From assembly GCF_026213295.1 (NCBI RefSeq), contig NC_079422.1, forward strand, positions 2,752,573 through 2,816,572: DNA of 64,000 bases, given 5' to 3'. This stretch comes from Gadus chalcogrammus. Taxonomy: Eukaryota > Chordata > Actinopteri > Gadiformes > Gadidae. The translations under genes were made by a program, and so were the position numbers. Positions 1 to 10,348 of this stretch are shown here, in pieces; the stretch's first letter is position 1; every line of letters starts with the position of its first letter. A model generated the notes under the pieces. The model did not search any database. It saw only the letters and a list, made by a program, of their open reading frames with translations, and was not told where the DNA came from.

Positions 1-148
1 TATTTATATTTAATTTAATGCTGCATTTTGTATTTTTTGTGTCTGTATTTTGTATGTCTGCCATTTCTGTACCCCCTGGCTGTTGTTGTATTGCTAATTG
101 TCAATAAAATGTATTTAAAAAAAAAACGTTTGTATGTGTCAGGTCAAT
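1..148 (+). repeat. Flank with retroposed-like 3' end (AATAAA plus short A tract)
   Basis: T-rich sequence without a usable reading frame. AATAAA lies at 103-108 and a run of ten A begins at 117, the usual end of a polyadenylated, reverse-transcribed copy. The last ~20 bases (about 128-148) match the flank of the empty-site paralog near 15784-15800, so the A tract probably marks a retrocopy inserted just left of that point. I cannot name its source. Confidence 0.35.
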
Positions 149-241
149 GGGGGATTATCACGCTGATACGTATTACTTCCGCTTTTGGTGTTCGTTGTGC
201 ACTGTGACATCCGGTGAATAACTCATCACTCGGGCGAACCG

Positions 242-2921
242 ATGATGGAGGACCGGCAGTTCACATTCACTACATCCCTGATAAATGCACCCAAAATCAC
301 GTTTTCTGACGTTCACAGACTCACAGAACAACATTCCATTACAGCCCGCTCCAAACTGGACAAGGATACAGTTTATTTTTCGAGAAATATATCTACGACT
401 ACGAAGGTGAGTGTCTAGCTAACGCTAGGTAGGTTGGCATGTTAACGTCAGTTTGGCGTCAGCTCAGACATTTCATTTTATTTTTCTGATGTTAGCGTTT
501 GTCAGTGTCAACTACCTAACGGCAACATACAAGTGTCCCTTTGCTAGAATGAACAATCCACAGTACATGCATTAATTATGTTTTTTTCTACCAGTGTCCA
601 ACATCATTGATAGGGAGGTGGCTGTCAGGTCTAGGTGTTACAGGTCGATGAAGAAGCGAGAACAGTCCCACTATTTGAAGGTTATTTTAGGAAGCTAAGG
701 AATAATGGCAAGAAGTTTAACCCCTTACACTCTTACCGGTTTACATCAAGTCAGTCAACAGCCATGTGCAAAAAAATTGCTATACCTTTGTGACATATGT
801 ACAGTATGCAAATATCAATATCATGATAATGTAACTTTGCATTTAAATTCTTTAATATCCTGTTTGTCCAACATGTTAATGGTGTAAGGGTTTAACTACT
901 CTACTGCGGTTGCAGATTTCCTAGAATTTTTGGTTCATTGCAATGCTCTTCCTTACATTTCTATATAATTTGCAACAATCAGTTTATTTTAGTTTAACTT
1001 TATCAACTTAAATATTTGTAGATTGTTTTCCAAGCTGACGGCGCCAATCTTCAAGAAACCACATGCAGCTGTACAGCAGGCAAGGTTCTTTGCAACCATC
1101 TAGTGGCCTTGTTGTTCCAGAGTGCCCATTACAGCATGTTGCAGGTGAGGGCTGAGGTCTGGGATGATGTTCACATGGGCAGGTTGATTGGAGTGACACT
1201 GGTTCTAGAGGTCTGCCTTCGATTATTAACAAGCACATCCTCAATCCCGGTTTGCTCTTCTATCTCTTGTTCTGCAGGTGAGAGCTGTACCACCTCCTAT
1301 GGCCTGCACAAGCTCTCTGCAAACATGGCATCGACCAAGGACTAAGGTAACATTGTAGCTGTGCGGAGCTGCACCGCATTGAATAGATTTCCAGGCTATT
1401 TTCAGCCGCGTCGTACCCCGCCCCGCGTGCCACGCTACGCTCTGCGAGCAGTGTGTTACAAACGTTACACACCTTTCGCAGAGTGAAGCGTGGCACGCGG
1501 GGCGGGGTACGACGCAGCCGCAGCTGTACGTCTGGCTACATTGGTTAACATGGGAGTGAATTGGAAGCGGCGCCGCTCCACGTGGCTTTATACTACTACA
1601 AGCAAGATACTATTACAATCATGGCTAATTGTTGATATCATTCCCAGGGGATCCATGCAGAGCCGGTTCCAGACTTGGTGGTTAGGAGACCAAAGCCATC
1701 CCCCAGGAGTGTATGCAAATCAACACTCTATCAAGCATACACAGGTGATGTTACTACTGTAACTAATATCATACTGTTGGCTGCTGTATAATACATAATT
1801 GTATCTTGCCACTTTAATACTCATAGATTATGTACCAAATATAACACTGCAGTGAGCTATTCTCCAGAAAGACTCTTGACATCAGAATTGAAAACCAAAA
1901 CAAGAGATGTGTGGATAATTTCACACTAACAGTTTTTCATTTTATGTTTCAGGATCCCTCCCTGACCCGCAAGTCTTGTCTCTTGGGGAAAGACTGAAAA
2001 AAATCATGCCGCAACCACTGATATCCTCAGTGCTACATGGCTTGTCTGAAGTCTCCATGGTCGACTCCAGCTTCGGACCTGTGCCGCGGGGTTCACCCCT
2101 GTCCTACCAGTGTCCTCCTGTGGTCAAACTCAGAAATGATGTTCAACATCCAGATGCACCAACATTCCCTAAACTGCCTTTAGAGGGGTCAACGTGTCCC
2201 ACTACTTTTCCTAAATTTGCCTCAAACTCCCAACAGTTTCTCCATTTGGACAGCTTAACTGTGACACATGAGATGGCAGCTGAGAGAGAGGAGCAGACAC
2301 GTGAGCAGAGTGCCCATTATGGCAAGCTTTACGCAAGCCTAGAGTGACAGCTAGTAGGTTCTATGAGGTTAGCCATGTGAAAGGACCGTCTTCTGGTCAG
2401 ACCCTGGCAGGGCGGATACTTAAGGGTGTACGCCAAACACCCGCAATGAAAAGGGGCCTTGATCGCGAGCCGCAGGTGCTGGAACAATATTCAAAACATT
2501 GCAATGTAAATGTCTTGCGCTGTGGATTTGTCATCCATCCCGATGCTCCTCACCTCGGGGCTAGCCCCGATGCGAGAGTATATGACCCAAGTGCCGCGTT
2601 CCGTGTTTTGGGCTGGCTGAAGTTAAATGCCCAGACATCTCTAACATTTCTGAGGCAGGACATGTTAAAATCGTGAATGGTCAGGCAAAACTGAAAAAGA
2701 ATCATAAATACCACTGGCAGGTTCAAGGTCAATTGACAATAACTGGATTGAGTTGGTGCGATTTTATAACAGACACTGAGGGAGACTTCACAGTCGAAAG
2801 AGTCTGGAGGGATGATGAAATTATCAAAGAAATGAAAAATAAGGTAGACTTGTACTTCTTTGGTACATATATGAATGTGTATTTTCAGCAGAAAGTGAAA
2901 TTAACTGAAAGAATAAAATGA
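242..2921 (+). pseudogene. SWIM zinc-finger / YqaJ-type nuclease gene of the ISL2EU element (two frameshifts)
   Basis: Five exons are readable: 242-406 (ATG at 242, donor GTGAGT), 1022-1144, 1278-1346, 1648-1744 and 1953-2921. The phases agree and each boundary has AG and GT. Exon 2 holds a SWIM finger (C-S-C, then C-N-H) around 1076-1110. Exon 5 carries the YqaJ/lambda-exonuclease fold: a short VTASRF motif near 2344, RGLDRE near 2455, GASPDARV near 2562 and AEVKCP near 2618, which together give the PD-(D/E)XK metal site. Frames change near 2330 and again near 2600-2615 next to a TTTT run, so the protein cannot be made intact from this copy. The family is expected to be an alkaline exonuclease or recombinase acting on DNA ends; its role in the transposon is unknown. 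It converges on the transposase gene, with about 250 bp between the stops. Confidence 0.75.
1404..1517. repeat. Near-perfect 114-bp hairpin in an intron of the YqaJ gene
   Basis: Left arm GCCGCGTCGTACCCCGCCCC is followed by CGTGCCACGCTACGCTCTGC. The right arm repeats the same text in reverse complement with few differences, around a short AT-rich loop containing AACGTT. It is GC-rich, unlike its surroundings. It resembles a tiny fold-back or MITE landing in intron 3. I found no clear target duplication. Confidence 0.7.
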
Positions 2922-3089
2922 TTTAATTCATTCCCTTTCTCTGAGTACATAATTTACTACATTACATATTAACATTTTGAATACTTTCTGGATAGACTGA
3001 CTGGACTTTAAAATTGATTATAGATGCAAGACTTCTCATTCAATTATATACATGTCATTCAAAATATATACAATGTTTTCAGCATACAG

Positions 3090-3140
3090 AATTACAGCTC
3101 CGGAAAAAATGAAGGGACCACTCCAAATGTTCAGTGTCTC
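3090..3140. repeat. Short DNA-transposon end fragment (tentative)
   Basis: The text ACAGCTCCGGAAAAAATGAA followed by GGGACCACTCC resembles the terminal sequence of a dispersed fish DNA transposon that I recall only loosely. Only this fragment is present, in the gap between the convergent YqaJ and transposase genes. The rest of 2922-3175 is AT-rich and shows nothing else. Confidence 0.25.
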
Positions 3141-4227
3141 TCGTTTTAATATTTACAGATATGTTTGAGTAAACACTATTCTACAGGGATGTAGCCTTTT
3201 AAATCAAGGGGTCCCTGGAAGTTGGTCATCACGCAGCAGACCGTCCACAGCTGGTTGACTGTCCCAGACAAGGTGAGAGGGACAGTGCGATCCCAGATGC
3301 GGTACTCCTTGACTCGGCGTATTGCTCTTTCCACAAGGATTCGAAGTCGGGCGATTGCTTGCGTTTTTAGAGCATCCTCTTCGGTGAACTGCGCTGTGGT
3401 TAGAGATAAGTTAATTAGTATTATTTCACATTTGGGTCAGTTTTAAATTGAAATGTTCATTCCTTTCATGCCTACCTGTCATCTTGAAGGGTGGTATAAT
3501 CAGCTTTGCCCCACGGTCAGCTAGCAGCTTCTCAATGGTGAAACCCTTGTCTGCCATGCAGCCATCTCCTGGCTCCAGCAAATCCAGCAGTCCACAACGT
3601 TCGGTCAGCTCTCGGTCAGAGATGGAGCCGGTGAAGAGACTCGACACAAAAGTCACAGCACTACACGGGGCAATCCCAATCAAGGCTTTAAAGGTTGTCG
3701 TGTTTTTGTAAGAGGAGAAAACCTCAGACTGGAGAGTGAGGGATGACGGATTCTGACATTGCACCTCGGTGCAGTCGATGATTACCCGAACATCGGGACT
3801 GTACTGCACAAATTTGCGCGGCATGGTGTTCTTTACTTGCTGTTTGCTCATCCAGATGGGGAGGGAGCCAAGGAGCAGGTAAAGGTAGTTGGCCCATGTT
3901 ATAACTACACGGGAGACAGTGGACACACTGACCTGAAACATGTCAGCCAGTACCTTCTCTTGCAGGCCTGAAGCAACCCGGCAGCAGAAGAGAAAAAAAT
4001 CATCATACAGTTGCAGTCTACGCGTTGGACTGGGAGAAATAGGTTAAAAGCTTTGTTGGTTCTTCTGAGCTTTCGAACAATAAACTAACATGGAGGCAGA
4101 TGGTCGAATAGCCTCCCAGAAGTGACAAAAAACCTCTCGTGATGTGAATCTTGTGTAAAATAAAATGTCCTTGTCTGAGACACAAAATGTGTGAAAGGGC
4201 ACATGACCCACTTTCAGCTGTGACAGC

Positions 4228-5682
4228 CAGTGGCAGCTGGTCGTTTTTAAAGTGAGGGAGGAAGGACTGCGCGCTTGGTTGCCATTGGCCTGCTTGCAAT
4301 GTTGGTGTATGGTGGCATAAGAATGTGAGACTCAAGTTGTTTCAGGGTGTTTTGGTGAACTACAAAATAGCAGGGAGGGAGTTATGTGAATAAAATGTAT
4401 ACAAAGCCACCAGTGGCAACACCGTAATTTGAGAAGGAAAGGATGCAAAGCATATTAGTCAAATCAGGCCTACTATTGATTTGTAAAAGTAAATAAAAAA
4501 ATCTGGGCCTATCATTGGGCCTATTTTTGCCCTCACTGACTGAAGTTATTTAGCTATGTTTATTTTCAGTTACAATTGTTTTAAGAAAAGACTCATGAAC
4601 TAAAGTGATGCCATTTAAAATGCATCATGCTCTGAATCATTCACTAACACCCTTTCCACAATATCAAACAGAGCGGTCAGAGTAACAAACTAGTAAAAGA
4701 ACAACAAGAACATTATTTCAAAACTATTTACATGGGCTGTAAGCCTAACTATTCAGATTGAGGGACTTCATTTATAGATCAGGTCAATCCTCCTTGCTGT
4801 TTGCGTTGCGAAGACAACATCAGTGAAACCATGAACAGCCCACGTTGGAGATTTGCTATTATTCATAAGCAAACAAGTCGATTGCTTGTAATGCTACCAG
4901 TAAGCCATGCGTACCTAGCAAACCATGTAGCACTCACAACACTGACGTTGCCATTACTTCTGGTGACCTTGATTTTGGGAAGTGGTCTACCTCTTTCTTT
5001 GGTCGCTAACTTAGCACTGTAACTGAATGAATGGAATGATTTTTGTAATAAGACGTTAACAATGTCCTCCGTTTCCAATGTTTCCATTGTGCATTTAGGA
5101 TCTCGCTATCGCAGATTTCACTTGCTCTGCGTCTCGACTGAGCACCGCGGCAATGCAGACCGGGTTTGTTATCGATAGCGTTGCCAGATTGGGCAGATTT
5201 CCCGCCCAAAGATAATTGTCCCAGCCTAACATGGTTAAAAGTAGCCCAATTGGGTGGGAAATCTGACCAATCTGGCAACACTGCTCAACGTCCAGGGATC
5301 CTGCTTATTGGTTCATAGCGCAGACGGATAGATTTTTGCGCGAATCAGACCCCTTAAGGTCCCACCCACTCAGAGGAGGATTTTCCTCCTCTCTCCCATT
5401 GAAACCCATGTTATCCACCGGCCGCCAGTACTTTCGGGGAAATGAATGGGAGTCAACGGAGGCGAACGGAGGACGTTCCTCCCTGAAGTAATTGTCAATA
5501 GGCAATAGGGGGTGCTAATGTCCCTTTACCCAGGGAAACGAACATTATATATTCAAAGGCAATAAAGTAGTCATATTTAAGGGCATTAATTCATTACAAT
5601 AGTCTGGGCAATCTACATTTTTTATTCTCAACAATGTTAGGGAGGATATTCCTCCCTCTCCACAATGGAGAAGCCTCCACTG
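4228..5682 (-). mobile_element. hAT-like non-autonomous element, copy A
   Basis: Bounded by a perfect 8-bp duplication GTGACAGC (4220-4227 and 5683-5690). Ends are CAGTGGCAGC on one side and CAGTGGAGGC read from the other, the CAGTG-type terminus usual in hAT elements. Most of it aligns in reverse with copies at 6046-9677 and 18933-20072. It has no transposase; short frames in it, such as one starting MLGR(T/I)F, recur in the other copies and look fortuitous. It lies in exon B of the THAP transposase, so it inactivated that gene. Confidence 0.85.
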
Positions 5683-6939
5683 GTGACAGCTCTCTTGTCA
5701 GCTCCTCTACTGTTTTCTCTAATTGCTGTATGCGTGCAGCAGCAGCATCCAGCGCACCTGTATGAGATGAGAAAAAAAATTAACACATCTGACCCAGATT
5801 TTGACTGTGACTTGCATATTGGAAGTAGTTTGGACCTCTAAAGAAATTGCTTTTTATAGCTCAATATTGCTTTTAAAATTTACTTTTTATAGCTCAATAT
5901 TCACCTTTACAATTAAGTAAGATATAAAATGCAACATTTGCACTTGTAATGAAGCTTTTCACATTGTGGTATTGGTCAAATGCTGGGACATCAATAAGAC
6001 TAAACATTTTGTGCAGAGTTCTGAAAAGTTGACCTGCCTCCTCGGCAGTGGAGGCTTCTCCATTGAGGAGAGGGAGGAAGGTCCTCCCTAACATTGTTGA
6101 GAATAAAAAATGTAGATGCCCAGACTATTGTAATGAATTAATGCCCTTAAATATGACTACTTTATTGCCTTTGAATATATAATTTTCGTTTCCCTGGGTA
6201 AAGGGACATTAGCACCCCCTATCGCCTATTGACAATTACTTCACCTCCGTCATTCTCCGTTGACTCCCATTCATTTCCCCGAAAGTACTGGCGGCCGGTG
6301 GATAACATGGGTTTCAATGGGAGAGAGGAGGAAAGTCCTCCTCTGAGTGGGTGGGACCTTAAGGGGTCTGATTCGCGCAAAAATCTATCCGTCTGCGCTA
6401 TGAACCAATAAGCAGGATCCCTGGATGTTGAGCAGTGTTGCCAGATTGGTCAGATTTCCCACCCAATTGGGCTACTTTTAACCATGTTAGGCTGGAAGAA
6501 TTATCATTCGGCGGGAAATCTGCCCAATCTGGCAACGCTGTCGATAACAAACCCGGTCTGCATTGCCGCGGTGCTCAGTCAGAGATGCAGAGCAAGTGAA
6601 ATCTGCGATAGCGAGATCCTAAATGCACAATGGAAACATTGGAAACGGAGGACATTCTTAACGTCCTATTAAAAAAAGCATTCCATTACAGTGCTAAGTT
6701 AGCGACCAAAGAAAGAGGTAGACCACTTCCCAAAATCAAGGTGACAGAAGTAATGGCAACGTCAGTGTTGTGAGTGCTACATGGTTTGCTAGGTACGCAT
6801 GGCTTACTGGTAGCATTACAAGCAATCGACTTTATTGCTGGCCCTGTTTGCTTATGAATAATAGCAAATCTCCAACGTGGGCTGTTCATGGTTTCACTGA
6901 TGTGGAAAATCTTGATAGGGCAACCAAACGCCACGACAA

Positions 6940-6981
6940 GTGTCAAGATCACGTTGGTGAGCACCAACGTGATCTTGACAC
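6940..6981. repeat. Perfect 20-bp inverted repeat with 2-nt loop
   Basis: The arms GTGTCAAGATCACGTTGGTG and CACCAACGTGATCTTGACAC are exact reverse complements separated by AG. The segment is missing from copies A and C of the host element, so it arrived later. It may be the residue of an inverted-repeat transposon or a fold-back repair product. Confidence 0.8.
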
Positions 6982-7019
6982 CCGTCGAGATCTAGGCCCA
7001 ATGATAGGCCCAGATTTTT

Positions 7020-7421
7020 AGGGGTCCTTTCTAATTGGCCAAAGGAATGTTCTTCAAACTATAAGGGAACCATCAAGGGGCAAACCCGAGTCTATATAGA
7101 AAATATGGCCAAGAATTATTAATGTGGGCGGGAGTTATTTGGCAAAGGAAAATTGTCTTTGGAAAATTTCGCCACAAGGGGGCGCAAATAAACGACGAAA
7201 TAATATATCTCCTAACTGGCCAATGGAATGTTCTGAAAACGCGTTTTAGGCTATAACTCCCACACCGAAGCTCCCACAGTCAAAAACGTCATATCCACAG
7301 ATTCACTGGAGTCAGCTGCATCTTTTGGCATACGCCGTTCCTCAATTTCGAACACATGCTTCGCGTTGTGCCGGCGAAATGCACACTTCTTGGACCCCTG
7401 CATAACTGCTTGCAGTTCTAG
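7020..7421 (+). mobile_element. Helitron-like non-autonomous insertion, unit 1
   Basis: The unit begins AGGGGTCC after a T and ends with a hairpin (ACTGC TT GCAGT) followed by TCTAG and then T. A short 3' hairpin followed by CTAG, no target duplication and insertion between T and T fit Helitron/Helentron-type termini. It shares with unit 2 the blocks 'gctataactcccacaccgaa' and 'ttgtgccggcgaaatgcac'. It has no coding capacity. Confidence 0.55.
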
Positions 7422-7423
7422 TT

Positions 7424-9406
7424 AGGGGTCCAAGCCAACAGGTTGGATCCCTATTGTTTTTGTAAGGATTTTTATTATTCCCAGCTAGAAGTGATACCAC
7501 AGCCCAAACCGTAAATGGTGCACACACGCCAATTGCATGACTAGATCCAGGTACGTGAGGTGACGGCAGACGACCAAATCCAGACATGCCGGCCACTAGG
7601 TGGCGCTATACCAAGGAATACGCGTTTGGGGCTATAACTCCCACACCGAACCTCCCAGAGTCCAAAAACTTGTACACACAGATGCACTGGAGTCTGCTGC
7701 ATCTTTTGGCCTAGGCCACGCCCATTTGCGTCTATGAATATTTTACGCTAAATCGCGAAAACCGCAAAACAGTTTTTTCGCTACTCCTCCCACATTTCTC
7801 GCCCGATCAACACCAAACTTTGCACACGACATCGTCAGACGCACACAAAAAATAAAATTCGAACACTTTTTTGATCCGACCTTCGACAACGAAACGGTAG
7901 CTCTTGGAATATTGGTATATTAGCTAAATTAGACGTGGAAAATGAAAAATCCAAAAAAATCCAAAATTAGACATCGGATCGAGTCCAAATTCTACACACA
8001 TGTTGGTGCTATCCTTAATGACGTTCGATAAAAAAATTGGAAAATTTCGCCATTAGGGGGCGCAATAAACGAGGAAATTGTATATCTTCTACAAAATTTC
8101 GCCGCGAAAACGCTACACTGACTTCTCGCTACTCCTACCACAGTCAAATCCTTTGTATCCACAGGTTCAGGGTAGCGTTTTGAACACATGCTCCGCGTTG
8201 TGCCGGCGAAATGCACATTTCTTGTCGCGTTGTGCCGGCGAAATGCACACTTCTTGTTATTCTTACCTCCCTAAAAGTGGGCCCACAGCCCAAACCGTAA
8301 ATGGTGCCGACACGCCAATTGCATGACTAGATCCAGGTCTCTTCGGACTACGCAGACGACAAAATCCAGACACGTCGGTCACTAGGTGGCGCTATACCAA
8401 GGAATACGCGTTTGGGGCTATAACTCCCACACCGAACCTCCCACAGTCAAAACCTTTGTATCCACAGATTCACTGGAGTCAGCTGCATCTTTTGGCATAC
8501 GCCGTGCCCATTTGTTTTGAACACATGCTTCGTGTTGTGCCGGCGAAATGCACATTTCTTGGACCCCTGCATAACTGCTTGCAGTTCTAGTTATACTACC
8601 TCCCCCCGAAAGTGGAACCACAGCCCAAACCGTAAATGGTGCACACGCGCCAATTACATGACTAGATCCAGAATCGGCACCGCTAATCAGATAACAAAAT
8701 CCAGACACGCCGGTCCCTAGGTGGCGCTATACCAAGGAATACGCGTTTGGGGCTATAACTCCCACACCGAACCTCCCACAGTCCAAAAAAGTGTACACAC
8801 AGATGCACTGGAGACTGCTGCATCTTTTGGCCTAGGCCACGCCCATTTGCGTCTATGAATATTTTTCGCTAAATCGCGAAAACCGCAAAACAGTTTTTTC
8901 GCTACTCCTCCCACATTTCTTGCCCGATCAACACCAAACTTTGCACACGACATCGTCAGACGCACACAAAAAATTAAATTCGAACACTTTTTTGATCCGA
9001 CCTTCGACGACGAAACGGTAGCGTTTGGAATATTGGTATATTAGCTAAATTAGACGTGGAAAATCAAAAATACAAAAAAATACAAAAGTAGACATCGGAT
9101 CGAGTCCTAATTCTACACACATGTTGGTGCTAACCTTAATGTCGTTCGATAAAAAAATCGGAAAATTTCGCCATTAGGGGGCGCAATAAACGAGGAAATT
9201 GTATATCTTCTACAAAATTTCGCCGCGAAAACGCTACACTGACTTCTCGCTACTCCTACCACAGTCAAATCCTTTGCATCCACAGGTTCAGGGTAGCGTT
9301 TTGAACACATGCTTCGCGTTGTGCCGGCGAAATGCACATTTCTTGTCGCGTTGTGCCGGCGAAATGCACACTTCTTGGACCCCTGCATAACTGCTTGCAG
9401 TTCTAG
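7424..9406 (+). mobile_element. Helitron-like non-autonomous insertion, unit 2 with internal ~1.1-kb duplication
   Basis: It starts AGGGGTCCAAGCC two bases (TT) after the CTAG end of unit 1 and ends with the same hairpin plus CTAG at 9406. A third hairpin-CTAG lies at 8567-8590, so this stretch is itself two units run together. Blocks near 7620-8350 recur near 8740-9390 at a spacing of about 1.12-1.13 kb. The same 5' end is found alone at 51591-51638. Short frames repeat because the DNA repeats. I see no Rep or helicase gene. Confidence 0.55.
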
Positions 9407-10348
9407 TTTTATTTACTTTTACAAATCAATAGTAGGCCTGATTTGACTAATATGCTTTGCATCCTTTCCTTCTCAAATTACAGTGATGCCACTGGTGGCT
9501 TTGTATAAATTGTATTCACATAACTCCCTCCCTGCTATTTTGTAGTTCACCAAAACACCTTGAAACAACTTGAGTCTCACATTCTTATGCCACCATACAC
9601 CAACAGTGCAAGCAGGCCAATGGCAACCAAGCGCGCAGTCCTTCCTCCCTCACTTTAAAAACCACCAGCCGCCACTGCTCCTCGGTATAACCTACCAAGA
9701 GCCCATTCTGTGATTAAACCATTGGTCAGGTAGGTGGTGTAAGAACAGTATGGGGTACTAGTAGGCCAATATTTCAGAACACTAACAAACCTGGTTTAGG
9801 AGCAGAACCGTAATCATGGTCTGTCAGCACCAGCGAAGCTGCAATCTCCTCCACCGGCTCTTCTTCACACGGCAGCGGTTGCTCCAGCGGAAGGGCTGGG
9901 TGAACGTCATTGCCTAAGCGAGATGATGCTCTTTTATATACGGACTCCCTTCTTGGCAGTCCCCAGTTTTTCCACTGGAAACGGGAGGGTACAGACCCGA
10001 TTTTTTGGTTGCTACAGACCCGGTTGGTTGCTATCCTTATCGCTGTAGCGTTGGTGTAGTCTGAATCACTGAAGTGCCGGCTACAAACAAACGTGCTTCC
10101 TAGTTTTATTTTAAAGTTTGGCCCTTCATCCCGGCGAACCGCTTGGATCCACTTCTTCCTGAGACTAGTATCAGTCGGGAATCTATGAAAATTTAAGTAT
10201 GGTTGGCGTTGTTTGTTTGATATACAAAGTGGAACAGAGCAGTGACATCTAGCTTTTGTTTCAGCCATTGTTGAACTGCGCCGGAAGTGTTCATGCACAA
10301 CGAAGACAAATCCCGCCACCGGAACCAGGAAGCGTGATAATCCCCTAT

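Follow-up and report, generated by a model that had tools for sequence, protein, structure and literature searches.

A decayed two-gene transposon of walleye pollock, in all likelihood of the ISL2EU group, pairing a THAP-DDE transposase with a SWIM-like/YqaJ nuclease

We analysed a 64,000-nucleotide stretch of the walleye pollock genome (Gadus chalcogrammus, contig NC_079422.1; hereafter “the window”), in which positions 149-10346 form a single transposon, bounded by inverted ends of 14 bp and an AT target-site duplication and containing two convergent multi-exon genes. The first gene (six exons) encodes a nuclease with a SWIM-like zinc finger ahead of a YqaJ domain, and the second (three exons) a transposase with THAP, helix-turn-helix (HTH) and DDE domains. 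Exon limits were mapped by comparison with L042, an intact sister copy elsewhere in the genome. The features are as follows.

147..148, no strand: AT target-site duplication, left copy (AT in this place at 39 of 41 sister-locus ends)
149..163, plus strand: left inverted end, (R)GGGGATTATCACGC (motif search in the window and genome, sister ends)
242..406, plus strand: SWIM-YqaJ exon 1, one frame-breaking deletion in the window copy (mapped by eye from the L042 model, P0001)
595..680, plus strand: SWIM-YqaJ exon 2 (mapped by eye from the L042 model)
1022..1144, plus strand: SWIM-YqaJ exon 3, SWIM-like finger CSCTAGKVLCNH (Pfam SWIM 9.6e-4, ligands conserved)
1278..1346, plus strand: SWIM-YqaJ exon 4 (mapped by eye from the L042 model)
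1648..1744, plus strand: SWIM-YqaJ exon 5 (mapped by eye from the L042 model)
1953..2921, plus strand: SWIM-YqaJ exon 6, YqaJ nuclease domain, two frame-breaking indels (Pfam YqaJ 4.3e-10)
3176..3393, minus strand: transposase exon 3, last part of the DDE domain, including the catalytic E (DDE_Tnp_4 2.3e-12; model P0241)
3476..4227, minus strand: transposase exon 2, larger part, with the HTH and the first two catalytic D (DDE_Tnp_4 2.1e-23)
4228..5682, no strand: nested insertion A, CAGTGG ends, 8-bp duplication GTGACAGC; missing from sister copies and foreign to the element
5683..5758, minus strand: transposase exon 2, 5' part, severed by insertion A (alignment with L042)
6046..9677, no strand: nested insertion B, CAGTGG ends, 8-bp duplication CTCCTCGG; missing from sister copies
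9791..10268, minus strand: transposase exon 1, THAP domain (Pfam THAP 2.3e-15)
10332..10346, minus strand: right inverted end (motif search in the window and genome)
10347..10348, no strand: AT target-site duplication, right copy (read at the right flank of the element)

The limits of the element are sharply defined. Within the window, GGGGATTATCACGC occurs exactly at 150-163 (plus strand) and 10332-10345 (minus strand), with no other site within two mismatches (chance expectation at two mismatches 0.21; two matches in 3 of 100 shuffles). Across the 630-Mb genome, the exact motif was found 81 times (38+43) vs. 0+1 for the reversed pattern, a contrast that fades when the search is relaxed to 13 bases with one mismatch (368 vs. 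256 reversed). The exact ends form 23 adjacent plus/minus pairs spanning 1.3 to 12.6 kb, 14 of which measure 2.5-2.93 kb. Element ends start with GGGG, and the AT that adjoins them at sister loci is preceded by A at 33 of the same 41 ends, a sample that includes duplicated contigs and duplicate loci. In the window copy, the AT is preceded by A at the left end and by G at the right end. The inverted ends, AT duplication and coordinates given in a preliminary description of this DNA proved exact.

Alignment with sister copies places the ancestral element at 149-4227, 5683-6045 and 9678-10346 (~5.1 kb), such that nested insertions make up 5,087 of the 10,198 bases, or half of the element's span. 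Insertion A interrupts transposase exon 2 and insertion B sits in transposase intron 1. The two carry the same CAGTGG ends in opposite orientations, and from their 8-bp duplications and CAG...CTG ends we take them to be probable hAT elements. Insertion B also contains internal repeat blocks, at roughly 7235-9409. The window copy is dead: three small indels break the frame of the nuclease gene (one in exon 1, two in exon 6) and an in-frame stop (4044-4046) together with insertion A breaks the transposase gene. Both the lesions and the nested insertions had escaped the preliminary description. A nearly perfect 55-bp inverted repeat in intron 4 of the nuclease gene (1405-1518; arms 1405-1459 and 1464-1518, 87% complementary) differs among sister copies.

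The proteins spliced from L042 show full-length identity to P0001 (497 amino acids) and P0241 (505 amino acids), and the spliced models are 100% identical to the annotated Gadus chalcogrammus genes LOC130378926 and LOC130378925, which bears out the two convergent, intron-bearing genes first proposed. Reading frames of the window matched Pfam YqaJ (4.3e-10), THAP (2.3e-15) and DDE_Tnp_4 (2.1e-23 and 2.3e-12), with HTH_Tnp_4 (1.1e-5, 25.4 bits) just below its cut-off of 27 and SWIM (9.6e-4, 19.1 bits) just below its cut-off of 19.6. The intact sister transposase exceeded all cut-offs (THAP 2e-16, HTH_Tnp_4 2.4e-7, DDE_Tnp_4 4.4e-39), and the intact nuclease matched YqaJ (8.6e-17) with SWIM again short of its cut-off (16.1 bits vs. 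19.6). Of the four domains originally named, YqaJ, THAP and DDE_Tnp_4 thus stand by profile, while SWIM remains below threshold with its ligands conserved.

To assess conservation, we aligned 62 homologues of the nuclease from the 120 listed, including teleosts, an acorn worm, a nematode and others. The lambda-exonuclease/YqaJ signature (a catalytic D, an E-x-K and a preceding E) is present, with E354 and E404 found in all 62 homologues and D388 and K406 in 61. The best solved relative of the nuclease profile is exonuclease 3syy (1.8e-22), whose D, E and K motif positions align across the YqaJ domain; the profile also matches mimivirus R354 (3e-7). The finger ligands CxCx(n)CxH are kept to the same degree (C99 in 60 of 62; C101, C108 and H110 in 61). 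The SWIM model matched just 3 of the 62 at an E-value of 0.01; several homologues are labelled “SWIM-type domain-containing” in UniProt. Because the finger falls below the Pfam cut-off and few homologues match the model, we call it SWIM-like.

Broadly speaking, this combination is that of the ISL2EU group. In the accessible sections of PMC4482050 and PMC9179366, ISL2EU elements are animal transposons within the PHIS (PIF/Harbinger-ISL2EU-Spy) superfamily that duplicate AT at A|AT|T targets, usually have ends starting with GG, encode a THAP-HTH-DDE transposase and a YqaJ protein, and average ~4.8 kb. Since each of these published features examined here (ends, AT duplication, A|AT|T target, domains, gene layout and a length of ~5.1 kb once nested insertions are removed) is found in our element, we consider it a member of this known group. 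The pollock sequence is, in all likelihood, a decayed two-gene ISL2EU cut-and-paste transposon, which agrees with the class first proposed for it; it differs from the published elements in being dead and in its two nested insertions. The pairing of DDE and YqaJ genes is accordingly already published, so that the preliminary label of a poorly described system does not hold for the pair. It does hold for the SWIM part: the accessible sections of the same two papers make no mention of a SWIM finger, and no description of the SWIM part of the ISL2EU nuclease was found in the literature outside most subscription journals and Repbase. As far as these sources extend, the finger domains of the nuclease are under-described.

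Three other systems invite comparison. PIF/Harbinger elements have a related DDE transposase and a second gene for a partner protein, and their genes evolve congruently (PMC9179366, accessible text), but that partner is Myb/SANT-like rather than a nuclease and the duplication is the 3-bp TWA (PMC4482050, accessible text). KolobokE and other nuclease-bearing Kolobok elements are likewise DNA transposons with an added lambda-exonuclease-like (PD-D/ExK) nuclease, but with a transposase of another superfamily, a TTAA duplication and the nuclease downstream of the transposase domain (PMC9587614, accessible text). Finally, the YqaJ domain resembles the LHK-type phage exonuclease (3syy) and the lambda-exonuclease family in sequence and in its aligned D, E and K positions, while the animal protein has an N-terminal extension with the SWIM-like finger, and a gene for an annealing partner was not seen in the element.

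The pairing of the two genes is far from accidental. Among the top 30 YqaJ loci of the genome (ranked by Pfam score regardless of ends, near-identical copies included), 24 have a related DDE gene within a 1.5-kb flank, all 24 of them convergent; a SWIM exon can be detected at 19 loci. One of the six remaining loci, L020, has its DDE about 3 kb downstream. In a wider count of 124 YqaJ matches against 150 of 152 DDE matches (150 of 413 candidates scored), at least 69 of the YqaJ matches have a DDE no more than 6 kb away among the matches listed, at least 59 of them convergently. In 1000 trials of random placement, with assumed lengths for some contigs, pairs averaged 1.1 and never exceeded 7. 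Conversely, at least 71 of the 150 DDE matches listed have a YqaJ within 6 kb, the short derivatives described below being among the remainder. Between-locus distances in the YqaJ domain are also strongly correlated with those in the DDE domain (mirror-tree r = 0.95 for 17 loci, chosen from the fetched loci with both genes, and 0.90 for 11 non-redundant families), a level not reached in 5000 permutations each. The co-occurrence above chance anticipated in the preliminary description is thereby upheld, and chance adjacency of the two genes is rejected by the pairing counts and the mirror-tree. The same description would have been contradicted by YqaJ genes lying mostly outside such termini. Taken literally, most do lie away from the ends of this family, but many of those are still paired with a DDE gene in other families. 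As judged from these sequence comparisons, the two genes are shown to have been co-inherited over a long time.

YqaJ matches have been assigned elsewhere to other classes, being counted together with viral alkaline exonuclease matches as endogenous viral elements in a clam genome (PMC7826175) and as recombinases in another study (PMC10225492), as stated in the accessible parts of both. The clam classification, and the fact that Pfam PF01771 also matches our intact nuclease protein, could suggest an endogenous viral gene that came to adjoin the transposase by accident. The same ends enclose both genes in independent insertions (window, L039, L040-L043), and the annotated pair has consecutive locus numbers in walleye pollock (LOC130378926/5) as well as in three further fishes (Engraulis LOC134447153/2, Leuciscus waleckii PO909_029872/1 and PO909_016488/9, Coilia ACEWY4_006222/3). 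Pairing counts and mirror-tree lead us to reject this endogenous viral reading, which we regard as highly improbable.

Not all pairs share one layout. From a by-eye reading of match coordinates, at least seven are divergent, four of them with domains 2.3-2.5 kb apart (C12:22481234-22484660, C4:917058-920368, C7:4198069-4201386 and C7:2607808-2611125), and this divergent order is apparently a second layout of the YqaJ/DDE pair. Separately, four YqaJ loci (L021, L023, L033 and L034) have no DDE within 6 kb among the matches listed and are possible orphan or domesticated copies, with an open frame of 370 amino acids at L021.

Three independent two-gene insertions of the window's own family were aligned: the window copy, L039 (a separate insertion, about 99% identical) and L040-L043, which represent one insertion on duplicated contigs because their flanks are shared. 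A fourth is suggested on contig C1 by a YqaJ match at 7136941, a DDE match at 7144076 and an element end at 7145804, and L049/L050 hold a partial, more diverged gene pair. Alongside these, twelve loci (L044, L045, L047, L048 and L051-L058) have a shorter form of 2.5-2.9 kb. In 11 of the twelve, the match ends at 465-467 and restarts at 2801-2802, which removes nearly the entire nuclease gene, and L056 shows the right edge only of this deletion; the junction is identical in the four copies in which it was read. The last transposase exon has the same one-base frame break in all ten of the short copies compared but not in L049, and seven DDE matches within 2.5-2.84 kb end pairs share a 255-amino-acid frame with one TAA, a position at which L044 has no stop. 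Measured against L042, short copies gave ratios of non-synonymous to synonymous substitutions (dN/dS) of 0.19 to 0.24 for the DDE exon and 0.32 to 0.51 for THAP. The shared frame break and the TAA frame lead us to reject the short form as an autonomous, nuclease-free element; these copies look like non-autonomous derivatives, probably mobilised in trans.

The abundance of such copies (14 of the 23 exact end pairs), and the loss of the same stretch in 11 of 12 short loci, could be taken to mean that the element can do without the nuclease gene, which would then spread as a passenger by virtue of its position between the ends. We think this unlikely. The transposase lesion common to the ten short copies compared implies that they moved in trans and are therefore uninformative about any need for the nuclease, and a passenger would not readily account for the co-divergence across 11 families or for the low dN/dS between close YqaJ pairs, which are few (0 to 0.07; seven non-independent comparisons). 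Close DDE pairs gave 0.05 to 0.15 (four comparisons).

The gene pair is also represented by a deeper clade (L061, L062, L027, L024-L026 and L028; proteins P0121-P0240), whose YqaJ proteins are ~30% identical to that of the window and are again accompanied by a convergent DDE gene. The finger motif reads CTCMAGIAEACTH in L027 and, by eye, is seemingly split by an intron in L062, while Pfam SWIM found no match in the frames of L027, L061 or L062. Since the motif is found in both clades, we reject the SWIM-like finger as a peculiarity of the window's family. After YqaJ, a C-terminal PHD finger is recognised by Pfam in L027 (2.3e-7, above cut-off) and, weakly, in L061 (0.011, below cut-off), with no PHD match in L062 at 0.05. 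Among 120 listed relatives of the L061 protein, 116 have the nuclease motif, and a C4HC3 pattern occurs in 78 of the 92 with at least 150 residues past that motif vs. none in shuffled tails. The SWIM pattern occurs in 16 of the 34 with a long N-terminus, and 12 carry both, including proteins from sea urchin (P0187) and amphioxus (P0196). In the first set, that of the window nuclease, 102 of the 120 listed homologues have the nuclease motif and 61 of 70 with a long N-terminus the SWIM pattern, whereas the PHD pattern is absent from this set, in which no tail reaches 150 residues. No description of a transposon-encoded SWIM-YqaJ-PHD module was found, partly by titles, outside most subscription journals and Repbase. 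The L061 element has ends AGACCAATTTT adjoining AT, and a longer inverted repeat just outside these ends was not seen at the single L046 end compared.

These fingers raise the alternative that the protein is chiefly a DNA-binding or recruiting partner of the transposase, like the Myb-like protein of Harbinger, acting by means of the SWIM-like finger, joined in the sister clade by PHD, with any nuclease activity minor. In its accessible sections, PMC4482050 gives the function of the second gene as unknown and calls its protein DNA-binding, and the zinc ligands are indeed as conserved as the catalytic residues (60-61 of 62), with the PHD pattern frequent among the long-tailed proteins of the sister clade. 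The catalytic residues are nonetheless near-invariant over fishes, acorn worm and nematode, which argues that catalysis matters, and a chiefly DNA-binding role seems to us rather unlikely.

What, then, might the nuclease do? In relatives, THAP domains bind near transposon ends, DDE domains excise the element and join it to its target, and enzymes with the lambda-exonuclease fold degrade DNA in the 5'-3' direction. By analogy, the THAP domain here would bind DNA near the ends, the DDE domain would cut the element out and join it to a new target, and the YqaJ domain would degrade DNA 5' to 3', with the SWIM-like finger perhaps acting as a tether between the nuclease and either the ends or the transposase. 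It is tempting to speculate that, once the element has been excised, the nuclease resects the break at the donor site, and so would bias repair toward recopying the element from the sister chromatid; aborted copying could then leave internally deleted copies. Internally deleted derivatives with one shared junction do exist, consistent with such aborted repair copying. We favour this role over the others considered here, but as a tentative possibility only.

The nuclease might instead, much as the preliminary description suggested, work within transposition itself, trimming ends or target gaps and flaps with the SWIM-like finger as a guide. Tight pairing and co-divergence would suit such a direct partner of the transposase, and the A|AT|T target (PMC4482050, accessible text), together with AT at 39 of 41 ends, implies staggered ends that need filling or trimming. 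Harbinger relatives use a Myb-like partner and no nuclease (PMC9179366, accessible text), and nuclease processing of ends is therefore unnecessary in that sister group; we consider this role doubtful, if by no means far-fetched.

Returning to donor-site resection, several observations weigh against it and the wider picture of a maintained pair. Internal deletions do not single out resection, since they occur in nuclease-free transposons too. The nuclease of the window's lineage appears under modest constraint only (dN/dS about 0.1 to 0.5), with exon 6 values against intact L042 of ~0.26 in the window copy, ~0.10 in L039 and ~0.50 in L049 (140 codons). Among the matches listed, 55 of the 124 YqaJ lack a DDE within 6 kb, although four of these (L012, L018, L027 and L030) have one by direct comparison, so that 69 is an undercount, and 10 of the 69 pairs depart from the convergent order. 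Lastly, the proposed role is drawn from sequence rather than from activity or structure.

A bolder version would have ISL2EU elements carry a dedicated, repair-steering nuclease, SWIM-YqaJ in form, with a deep clade in several animal groups extended to SWIM-YqaJ-PHD, that is tethered to chromatin at the excision site, where its resection of the donor break would lead the host to recopy the element. We give this little credence at present; if true, the transposon would encode a recombination module whose nuclease bears a histone-reader finger. More generally, the PHD-bearing clade hints that the protein may act on chromatin, and matches to YqaJ or viral exonucleases in animal genomes call for caution, as in many cases they belong to transposons and not to viruses. 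With an intact pair and nuclease-less derivatives that share the same ends, the walleye pollock genome offers a ready set for probing what an exonuclease may do for the transposon that carries it.

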